From: Nostoc sp. JL34
Lineage (GTDB): Bacteria; Cyanobacteriota; Cyanobacteriia; Cyanobacteriales; Nostocaceae
Direction of reading: 5' to 3'
NCBI RefSeq assembly: GCF_017114945.1
Contig: NZ_JABXKQ010000056.1
Location: 62,001-126,000, forward strand
DNA length: 64,000 nucleotides
The notes beneath the pieces were generated by a model that did not search any database, was not told the DNA's origin, and worked only from the letters and a program-made list of their open reading frames with translations. Positions 32,895-36,618 of the stretch are shown here, piece after piece. Within the stretch, counting starts at the first letter, position 1. Each line of letters opens with the position of its first letter. The translations under genes and the position numbers were made by a program.

Positions 32895-33566
32895 TTAGTC
32901 ACGCCTAAACAACCCAAATAGGGGAGCGAGAATTACCCCAAAAACAAAACCACCGATGTGGGCCCAGTAGGCAACACCACCAGTTTCCACAGTCATGTTA
33001 GCGGCTGTTTGCAGGGTAGCAAGACCAGATATCACATTTTGCACAATGAAAAGTCCAATTATTACTAGCGCTGGAACTCTGATTGTGGTGATGAAAAATC
33101 CCAAAAATATTAAGGTCATAACTTTAGCGTGGGGAAAGCGGATAATGTACGCACCCAAAACCCCAGAAATTGCACCACTTGCCCCCAAGGAAGGAATCGC
33201 AGAATTCATACCAATAAACCATTGGCACAAGGCAGCTAAAGCACCACACGCCAAATAAAAAATCAGATATTTGGCATGACCCAATCGATCTTCAATATTG
33301 TTGCCAAAAACCCAGAGAAACACCATATTTGAAATTAAGTGCCACCAACCACCGTGTAAAAATTGCGACGTAAATAACGTTATCCACTCTCCACTCAAAT
33401 TGGTGGTTAACTCTTGAGGCACTACCGCATACTGACTTAAAAACTGATTCAATTGTCCATGTGACAGACTCACCTCGTGAATAAAAACTAAAATATTCAT
33501 GCCAATTAACCCGTAGGTGAAATACGGGGTGATTCGCGTCGGATTTTCGTCGTAGAGGGGAAACAC
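32895..33566 (-). CDS. Rhomboid family intramembrane serine protease (copy 1)
   Basis: About 223 residues. The GTG at 33566 is preferred: it aligns with the start of the next rhomboid (PLYDENPTRITPYFTYGL versus PIRDNNPTKITPYVTYGL) and has AGGA about 9 bases upstream; a TTG at 33599 is an alternative. Six membrane segments are visible. The catalytic dyad sits in PSLGASGAISGVLGAY (Ser) and AYWAHIGGFVFG (His), with the auxiliary HLISNMVFLWVFG. Rhomboids cleave transmembrane helices; the substrate here is unknown. A paralogue lies immediately upstream on the same strand. Confidence 0.92.
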   Translation of the reverse strand: MFPLYDENPTRITPYFTYGLIGMNILVFIHEVSLSHGQLNQFLSQYAVVPQELTTNLSGEWITLFTSQFLHGGWWHLISNMVFLWVFGNNIEDRLGHAKYLIFYLACGALAALCQWFIGMNSAIPSLGASGAISGVLGAYIIRFPHAKVMTLIFLGFFITTIRVPALVIIGLFIVQNVISGLATLQTAANMTVETGGVAYWAHIGGFVFGVILAPLFGLFRRD

Positions 33567-33698
33567 AGGTGTTTTTCCTAAATTATTGACTAACTGCAAT
33601 ATAGCTTGTAAGGCTAGCAGTTGCGAAGGTTAGACAATTTCACCTATTAAATCAAACAGTATAATTGAGGGGTACGACGATACTATGAAGAATTACTT

Positions 33699-34412
33699 CT
33701 ACCAAGATTCTTCCTGAGATTTATCGCTAAATAAACCCAATAGTGGGCCGAGAATTGCCCCAAAAATAAACCCACCGGCATGGGCCCAGTAGGCAATACC
33801 ACCGCTTTCCATACCGATGTTAGTACGTGCTTCAAGACTAGTAAGACCGTAGAAGGCTTGTTCCAGAAACCAGAATCCTAAAAAGAAATATGCCGGGACA
33901 CGGAAAGTTGGGAAGAAAATCCCTAAAGGTACAACGCCGAGAACTTCGGCGTTGGGAAAACGGAGAATGTATGCACCCATAACACCTGCGATCGCACCAC
34001 TTGCACCCAACGAAGGAATGCTAGAATCTTGAGCGAAGAACCACTGGGTCAAGGATGCCAAAATACCGCAAGATAAATAAAACAGCAAATATTTGGCATG
34101 ACCTAACTTATCTTCAACGTTGTTACCAAAAATCCACAGAAACAACATATTGCCAGCTAAATGCAAGAAACCGCCGTGCAAAAATTGTGAGGTAATCAAA
34201 GTTGCCCACTCTGGTACTGGTTGATGTACAGAGATGCCTCCAAAGCTTAAAGTCAGTTCTCGTGGAACTACTGCCGCAAGGTGTAAAAATCCATTTAATG
34301 CTTGTGGGGGAAGACTTGCTTCATAAAGAAAAGCGAGGACATTGGCAGCAATCAGTCCATAAGTTACATAAGGCGTGATTTTTGTCGGATTATTATCTCT
34401 AATGGGAACCAC
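33699..34412 (-). CDS. Rhomboid family intramembrane serine protease (copy 2)
   Basis: A 237-residue protein that begins with GTG at 34412, AGGA lying upstream. Motifs: HLAGNMLFLWIFGNN, PSLGASGAIAGVMGAY (Ser nucleophile) and AYWAHAGGFIFGAIL (His). It carries an extra loop in the first periplasmic region (LSFGGISVHQPVPEW) and a hydrophilic tail (SDKSQEESW) compared with copy 1. The two genes are 132 bases apart, in the same direction and similar along their whole length, so they are tandem duplicates that have diverged. Confidence 0.92.
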   Translation of the reverse strand: MVPIRDNNPTKITPYVTYGLIAANVLAFLYEASLPPQALNGFLHLAAVVPRELTLSFGGISVHQPVPEWATLITSQFLHGGFLHLAGNMLFLWIFGNNVEDKLGHAKYLLFYLSCGILASLTQWFFAQDSSIPSLGASGAIAGVMGAYILRFPNAEVLGVVPLGIFFPTFRVPAYFFLGFWFLEQAFYGLTSLEARTNIGMESGGIAYWAHAGGFIFGAILGPLLGLFSDKSQEESW

Positions 34413-34587
34413 GAGCGTTTTTTCCTGATTTTAAGACAGCAATTCTACAATACTGAATTCTGTAAGTAGTTTCTTCTACCTCGTGGATGGCTTTCGCTTT
34501 TAGACTTAAAAACTGAAAGCCAAACCCCTAAACCATTCACTGCATCTGATTCCAATTCAATAGCTGACCAAACCCACTGACAAACTC

Positions 34588-35309
34588 ATGTTTTTTTCAA
34601 ATTCTCTGGAAAATCAACTCCAACGGTGGAACGAAACCATTCGGAATCAGCCGAAAAATCCTAATGCTTACATTCGCCGAGGCATGGTTAACTTTCAACT
34701 GGCCAAGATTGATGAATCTATTCAAGATTTTGATATGGCAGAGCAATTAGATGCTCGTATCAAACCCTACCTCTGGCAACGAGGATTGTCGTATTATTAT
34801 GCAGAAAGATTTACTGAGGGCACTGAACAATTTGAAATAGATTTGACAGTGAATGCTCAAGATGTAGAAGAAACAGTATGGCGATATCTCTGCATAGCTC
34901 GTTCGTTAGGTGTTGAAGAAGCACATAATTCTTTACTAACTGTAAAAAATGACCCTCGACGGATTATGCAGCGCGTATATGATTTGTATGCAGGAAATTG
35001 TACACCAGATGATGTTTTAATTGTTGGTCAATCCGAAGGGATAAAGGGAAATTTTTACAGTCATCTTTACTTGGGATTATATTACGAAGCTGAAAATAAT
35101 CTTGATTTAGCTCAGGAATACAGCGCTTCCCGCTATTATGCAGCACATTTTTTTTCTTGCCCCTTTCTTAGCATACTTTTCAGTTTTAATGATGTACCTC
35201 ATAGCTGCCGGAAGTGCTGTATATAGTGAAAGCTGCTGATAATTACAAAATTGATGATTATATGTGGTATCTGGCAGACGTACATAAAACCCTGCGACGA
35301 TGGTCTTGA
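34588..35309 (+). pseudogene. TPR-repeat protein gene interrupted by a 99-bp insertion
   Basis: The frame starts at ATG 34588 and codes for tetratricopeptide-like helices (NPNAYIRRGMVNFQLAKIDES, IKPYLWQRGLSYYYAERFTEG, HLYLGLYYEAENNLDLAQEY). After 35120 it reads unrelated sequence and stops at 35226. The proper tail, KAADNYKIDDYMWYLADV..., is found in another frame at 35229-35309. Removing 101 bases (35121-35221: the 99-bp element plus one TA copy) rejoins them exactly as ...QEYIVKAADNYKID..., giving 206 residues. The present product would be 212 residues with a foreign C-terminus. The function of the intact protein is unknown; such repeats mediate protein binding. Confidence 0.85.
35121..35219. 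mobile_element. 99-bp MITE-like element with TA target duplication
   Basis: The left end CAGCGCTTCC and the right end GGAAGTGCTG form imperfect terminal inverted repeats, matching at 9 of 10 outer positions and about 20 of 28 overall. TA flanks both sides (35119-35120 and 35220-35221), as left by IS630/Tc1-mariner-type transposases. It has no coding capacity. It interrupts a TPR gene, and its precise removal restores the frame. Confidence 0.8.
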
Positions 35310-35793
35310 TTTGCTCAATAGTAAATAAATTAAGCGTTATGGAAAGGGAAAGGTAGAAAATATTCCCTAGACGAGGAGGCTTTTCGTAAGCGTTGATGCT
35401 TTAGAGCGGCTATACGGATGAAAGAGACAATCACGATCGATTGGTAATCTGCTGCAAGTTGCTTTAATCCTTGTTTCCGTGTCCCTATATCTTTGCGTTA
35501 CCCCTAATCATAAGTATTTGACCAAAATTAAACACATATTGTCTAATCTGTCAATCAATAAGTTCTAATTTAGATTTTTTATAAAGATTGCGTAAAATTA
35601 CTAGTTCTCGTGATAAAGCATTACAAGAATTGCTTTATAAATCAATCTATGAGTAGATATAAACTCAGTTAGCAATCACACATTAACCACTATTTATCTA
35701 GCAGGTAGATAGCAGTTTCAAAGTGGGTTTTTGCTGTTTGATTTAACCCACGCGGTATAGCATTCTGTTAATCAATATCAAAAGGACACAAAT
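35310..35793. other. AT-rich upstream region of the PEP-CTERM gene
   Basis: No gene seen. Inverted repeats: AAAGCA...TGCTTT (35616-35637) and GTGGGTT...AACCCAC (35723-35751). The latter lies about 40 bases before the start codon and might be a regulatory or leader hairpin. AAAGGA at about 35780 is the ribosome binding site. Confidence 0.45.
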
Positions 35794-36450
35794 ATGACTA
35801 GAATTACAACAAAAATAGCCTTGTCTGTTCTAGGAACAGCAGGAATTAGTTTTTTGTCTTGGACACCAGCAAGAGCCGTCATCTTTGTAGAACCCATTGT
35901 GACGACTCAAAATCAAGACATACTCGACACGAAAAAGCCAAGAACCCTTACAGACTATCTACCAGGGCAAGTAATAGAATACGGTGTTCCAGATGTAGCT
36001 AATAACTTTCTAAATGCCACCGGGTACGATATAAATAGCTTGGTCTTTGATTTAAAAACGCTGTCCTATAGTAATCCGAATTCTACTCCACCATTTGATA
36101 ATGAACCAGTGCAGTGGGGAGATGTTAATGGAGATGGAAAGATTGGTTACTCTGCTAATCCTGATCTAAAAAATATTTTTACAGACATTACCGTTGATGG
36201 TAGTACTATCACTTTTAGTGGTGGCGTAATCCCAAACGGAACTCTATTTTACAATCCATTCGCTACCCTGCCTAATCTAGCGCCAGGTGGTGGAATTATT
36301 CCACCAATACCAGCAGAGGTAGAGGATAAAGATGGACCTATCAGAGTGGCTGCTTATTACACCGCTATTCCTGAATCAACTAACGTTTTGAGTGTACTGG
36401 TCTTTGGCGCTTTAGGCGTAGCTTTAAAAGTAAAGCGATCGCTTTGTTAA
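35794..36450 (+). CDS. Predicted PEP-CTERM surface protein
   Basis: A 218-residue protein with an N-terminal signal peptide (IALSVLGTAGISFLSW, cleavage near ARA) and a C-terminal sorting signal: IPESTN, a hydrophobic helix (VLSVLVFGALGVAL), then KVKRS. This is the tripartite layout recognised by exosortases, and the cyanoexosortase gene lies 8 kb upstream. The middle is acidic, strand-rich and contains WGDVNGDGKIGY, a short dockerin/EF-hand-like Ca-binding loop. Enzymatic function is not indicated. AAAGGA precedes the ATG. Confidence 0.82.
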   Translation: MTRITTKIALSVLGTAGISFLSWTPARAVIFVEPIVTTQNQDILDTKKPRTLTDYLPGQVIEYGVPDVANNFLNATGYDINSLVFDLKTLSYSNPNSTPPFDNEPVQWGDVNGDGKIGYSANPDLKNIFTDITVDGSTITFSGGVIPNGTLFYNPFATLPNLAPGGGIIPPIPAEVEDKDGPIRVAAYYTAIPESTNVLSVLVFGALGVALKVKRSLC

Positions 36451-36580
36451 TTCTGTTATATCAAGTCCGGTTAATTACTTATGATTACCGCATCCGTGCA
36501 AAAATCAGGAAAATCTCTTTCTCCCTGCTCCCTGCACCCCTGCGGTCTAAATGATAAGTGCTTTACCCGAACATGATATT

Positions 36581-36618
36581 ACTGGGGACTGGGGACTGGG
36601 GACTGGGGACTGGGGACT
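36581..36618. repeat. STRR heptamer repeat (ACTGGGG)
   Basis: Five perfect head-to-tail copies of ACTGGGG plus a partial one. It lies between the convergent PEP-CTERM and GT4 genes. A shorter relative occurs near 27822-27840. Confidence 0.9.

Follow-up and report, generated by a model that had tools for sequence, protein, structure and literature searches.

The window analysed here, a stretch of 64,000 nucleotides from the genome of Nostoc sp. JL34, contains a TPR-like gene that is interrupted by a 99-bp element, which is a member of a new MITE family of an already known type. Very probably, an IS630/Tc1-mariner transposase, either of the group of ~1019-bp elements described below or of a near relative, mobilised this MITE in trans and inserted it at A-TA-T in the TPR-like gene (Table 1).

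Table 1. Features of the interrupted TPR-like gene and of the inserted element (positions in the window).
Feature	Position	Strand	Basis
5' part of interrupted TPR-like gene, 177 codons	34588..35118	+	ORF; weak Pfam TPR_2 match
Present ORF, 212 aa, terminal residues element-encoded	34588..35226	+	ORF list
Left TA of target duplication	35119..35120	.	empty site TA in 28/29 orthologues, AA in L049
Left terminal inverted repeat including TA	35119..35148	+	arm pairing; end motifs compared with IS630 ends
99-bp MITE, ends CAGCGCTTCC...GGAAGTGCTG	35121..35219	+	empty in orthologues; genus-wide family
Right terminal inverted repeat including TA	35192..35221	-	arm pairing; end motifs compared with IS630 ends
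Right TA of target duplication	35220..35221	.	orthologue comparison
Displaced gene 3' end to TGA, now in another frame	35222..35309	+	sequence; orthologue comparison

The gene region was searched in 79 genomes (the own genome and 78 relatives), of which 50 matched. Strong matches to the 5' gene part were counted in 41 same-genus relatives from the table of matches, and 29 of these 41 loci were examined. In 29/29 the element is absent from a precise empty site (TA in 28, AA in L049) and the gene runs on uninterrupted with IVKAADNYKIDDYM or near it. With the element and one TA deleted, the window reads ...LAQEYIVKAADNYKIDDYMWYLADVHKTLRRWS, which is collinear with all 29 orthologues, including the displaced 3' end. 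Since the repaired window reads like the orthologues, the insertion added 101 bases, namely the element and one TA. An earlier sequence-only reading had proposed just this, that the C-terminal codons of the TPR gene resume past the element in another frame and that removal of the element with one TA restores the gene without a gap, and it had suggested looking for an empty TA site at the orthologous locus. The opposite case that it had named, orthologues in which this sequence belongs to the conserved gene, was seen in 0/29. The assignment of the 5' part to TPR_2 is a Pfam match below the curated cut-off of 27 (E 3.3e-5, 24.1 bits). Beside the gene, two similar adjoining ORFs lie on the minus strand (window 32895-34412), which by their look we take to encode rhomboid-type membrane proteins.

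The element is short, carries no transposase gene and has terminal inverted repeats, the features by which MITEs are recognised. Its arms (35118-35148 and 35192-35222) are inverted and imperfect, with 74% complementarity over 31 nt, and a TA stands on either side, both as first read from the letters alone. The claim that the element has no coding capacity was right in that it holds no gene, but three of the six frames of the 99-bp copy are stop-free. They are too short for a transposase gene and allow read-through only; the interrupted gene therefore continues through the element as a 212-aa ORF.

Strong matches to the element are present in 36 of 46 same-genus relatives, with a single weak match in three and none in seven, which argues against chance similarity; of the 32 relatives that belong to other genera, G072 alone has a match, a weak one. 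For element and IS630 matches alike, at most 6 to 11 candidates per genome were scored. A pattern scan of named genomes yielded at least 118 stretches, and the organisms among the matches listed include Nostoc, Desmonostoc, Cyanocohniella, aff. Roholtiella and Calothrix. Plasmids account for 13 matches (11 in Nostoc, two in Calothrix), 12 of which cover at least 80% of the query, and the two plasmid copies inspected together with annotation each run into the end of a short ORF annotated as hypothetical. No match was found among 50,697 phage records. The copy set was collected by end motifs with few mismatches allowed and thus misses worn copies. It comprises 136 rows, in which the window copy stands twice (again as L058), and 113 of these 136 rows, among the matches listed, measure 103 bases with the two TAs included. 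The element is dispersed in many copies with a target duplication: 131 of the 135 distinct copies listed have TA at both ends, the left TA being fixed by the search pattern for copies fetched through the pattern scan. Among the matches listed, one identical sequence occurs 12 times at different sites in Nostoc sp. NMS2, a second 11 times across six organisms, and a third eight times, with seven copies in Nostoc sp. CCCryo 231-06 and the eighth in another genome. These identical copies within and between organisms indicate that the family was amplified recently and that several organisms have identical copies in common. A genome-wide search for the element, as proposed earlier, thus found it in multiple copies in related genomes, but in the own genome (7.8 Mb draft, 184 contigs) the window copy is the sole full one found. 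A literature search over titles and the beginnings of abstracts gave no name for the element, so that an earlier description is possible, and the available part of PMC5987646 contains no word starting with MITE.

Among the matches listed, 122 of the 131 copies bounded by TA on either side are inserted at A/T-TA-A/T (WTAW), compared with a background of 34.5% in the named loci, where 62,342 TA sites were counted. The corresponding binomial value of 2.6e-45 is not a true probability, as the copies are related. The ~1019-bp IS630 elements with related ends show the same preference (23 of 24 at WTAW), which many IS630 elements may share, the comparison here being with one group. The duplication of TA on insertion, a hallmark of IS630/Tc1-mariner elements, is found for the window copy and for seven others: 128 other copies have long flanks, and a spanning empty match was obtained for ten of these, in seven of which the junction carries one TA and in three another dinucleotide. 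Several of the ten spanning matches are distant (identity 74-90%), with one or two subjects inspected per copy, and one of the seven, L304, has TA at the junction against L239 but CA against L232. Taken as a second empty-site test, the flanks of the copy in G021 fall in a variable region and matched for the most part on one side only or with the two sides apart, which added no evidence. As a separate observation, the MITE copy at L061 335-437 in G017 interrupts a sequence whose empty form is L190 887-1283, a G020 locus with an IS630-type gene.

The candidate partners are IS630 elements of ~1019 bp that have MITE-like ends and carry PF13358 (DDE_3). As many as 27 of 30 bases at their ends agree with the end motifs of the MITE, whereas none of 662 mononucleotide-shuffled TACAG sites reaches 20 of 30. 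In L178 of G020 the IS630 transposase is spread over two frames. No IS630 element with ends identical to those of the MITE was found among the PF13358 loci of the own genome and relatives. The own genome contains pieces of the matching IS630 (85-93% identity) at eight places. Seven of them reach a contig end, in keeping with a repeat at which a draft assembly breaks. The longest piece, on C117, extends past the end of its contig and by eye seems to carry a frameshift, and the draft of 184 contigs showed no intact transposase from these IS630 elements. One of 18 own PF13358 loci has a MITE-like end, and a loose motif revealed no paired ends at these loci. Across the 46 genus relatives, the presence of the MITE and strong presence of the nearest IS630 were not significantly associated (17, 19, 2 and 8 genomes; Fisher p = 0.16). 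Independently of this, the MITE at L113 1377-1479 in G002 adjoins a truncated IS630 copy, the IS match ending at the TA of the MITE.

The same kind of MITE could have been moved by another transposase, of a divergent or lost element, with the IS630 group of L007 and L178 merely a cousin. This would fit with the seven MITE-bearing genomes that have no match to the nearest IS630, and with three of them (G004, G040, G041) in which MITE-like ends were found at 0/30 fetched PF13358 loci (33 matches in all); in G006, another such genome, one of six PF13358 loci has such ends, which are weak (L168, 23 and 21 of 30). The left inner repeat likewise reads TGCAATACA in the MITE family consensus and TGAGGTACA in the IS. 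However, the close agreement of the ends and the shared WTAW preference speak for the IS630 group, and the copies in G041 vary in match score, which fits old relics. The MITE copies in genomes without a partner may be relics, or another transposase may be at work there, and we regard a different mobiliser of the window copy as possible but rather unlikely. Of the original proposal of an IS630/Tc1-mariner transposase acting in trans, the similar ends and the common target preference are borne out, but an element with the same ends did not emerge and the identity of the mobiliser stays inferential. There is virtually no chance that the element is a conserved regulatory RNA or hairpin instead of a transposon: folding of the 103 bases (element and both TAs) does beat dinucleotide shuffles (z -4.18 as RNA, -3.18 as DNA), but the sequence lies at many genomic places with TA flanks and is missing from the orthologues. 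Nor does 34500-36600 match any Rfam family at gathering score (0 matches), and the empty sites contradict the RNA reading, which is rejected.

By the insertion the protein lost its last 28 residues and gained 34 element-read ones, so that it is 212 aa long now and was 206 aa, by count, when uninterrupted. Probably the interrupted gene is a damaged allele that lost a conserved C-terminus. The idea that the new 34-residue C-terminus is instead a usable remodelling of the protein draws on the ORF that is open through the element and on replacement changes that are not in excess upstream. Upstream of the insertion the window gene has four silent and two replacement private codons, and the 29 orthologues have 0-4 and 0-7, respectively, over the same gene part; the window gene lies within this range and decay is therefore not visible. 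Against remodelling, the lost C-terminus is a conserved one among the 29 orthologues examined, except in L035, which has an in-frame stop slightly beyond the site, and the insertion is apparently too recent to reveal selection. We consider remodelling very unlikely and favour damage.

The insertion had been called recent from the start, and both the inconspicuous private codons and the nearest copy agree with this. Among the matches listed, the nearest copy, in G021, differs at one of 103 bases, whereas the shared gene region is 6-10% different. The chance of so few changes at 6-8% divergence is 0.013-0.002, a flattering value since the nearest of 135 copies was chosen. As the nearest copy is in another genome and the own genome has no second full one, the window copy likely came from outside, from another lineage, judging from these sequence comparisons. 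The donor would have belonged to another Nostoc lineage and perhaps was plasmid-borne. An IS630/Tc1-mariner transposase of the ~1019-bp group or a near relative would bind both inverted repeats, excise the MITE from the donor DNA and paste it into A-TA-T under duplication of the TA, and the end of the host protein would be replaced as a consequence. In a wider picture, the genus-wide family would spread between species, partly on plasmids, persist without a matching transposase, enter genomes as a single horizontally acquired copy and be able to provide host proteins with new ends. This ability would follow from the fact that most copies have some frames without a stop, but we hold this picture as a whole to be improbable.

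Nezha is reportedly a cyanobacterial MITE with short inverted repeats and without a transposase, and the window MITE resembles it and other cyanobacterial MITEs by description, not by sequence. For the cyanobacterial IS630 element ISY100, the available part of the report describes that the transposase alone suffices for excision and insertion, that TA is duplicated, and that in vitro mini-elements with 30 bp of each end move as well as the whole element (PMC2170065). The ISY100/ISTcSa mini-elements of Synechocystis have short imperfect inverted repeats and duplicate TA like the window MITE, and having only ends they move in trans, as is proposed here (PMC2170065). Since such ends are all they need and the MITE has just these, movement in trans by an IS630-type transposase is the simplest account, and we infer this step by analogy. 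The likeness is one of organisation, the repeats being 24 bp in ISY100 and about 27-31 here, and the ISY100 transposase is a single protein, whereas that of the candidate partner L178 lies in two frames (PMC2170065). In Anabaena sp. 90, 15 of 147 MITEs lie inside disrupted ORFs, as the window MITE does, a likeness of description and not of sequence; according to the available part of that report, those MITEs do not evidently resemble the inverted repeats of that genome's IS elements, in contrast to the similar IS630 ends here (PMC3542288).

As the insertion is exact, its site is empty in 29 orthologues and IS630 elements offer a candidate partner, the locus is a test case for the movement of a MITE by an IS630 element with merely similar ends, and it is useful for the question of MITE passage among Nostoc species. 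Apart from such uses it is an ordinary, well-supported gene interruption. The window also contains a dispersed repeat of ~125 bp (36456-36583), shortly past the next gene, with inverted-looking ends (ATATCAAG.../...CATGATAT). It has at least 40 scored matches of 88-100% in the own genome, itself included (301 first-look candidates), and is far commoner there than the 99-bp MITE. Furthermore, a longer element of ~260 bp with the ends TACAGC...GCTGTA and apparently another repeat inside is present in the own genome at L003 1270-1529 and L004 1270-1529, with A-TA-T at both places.
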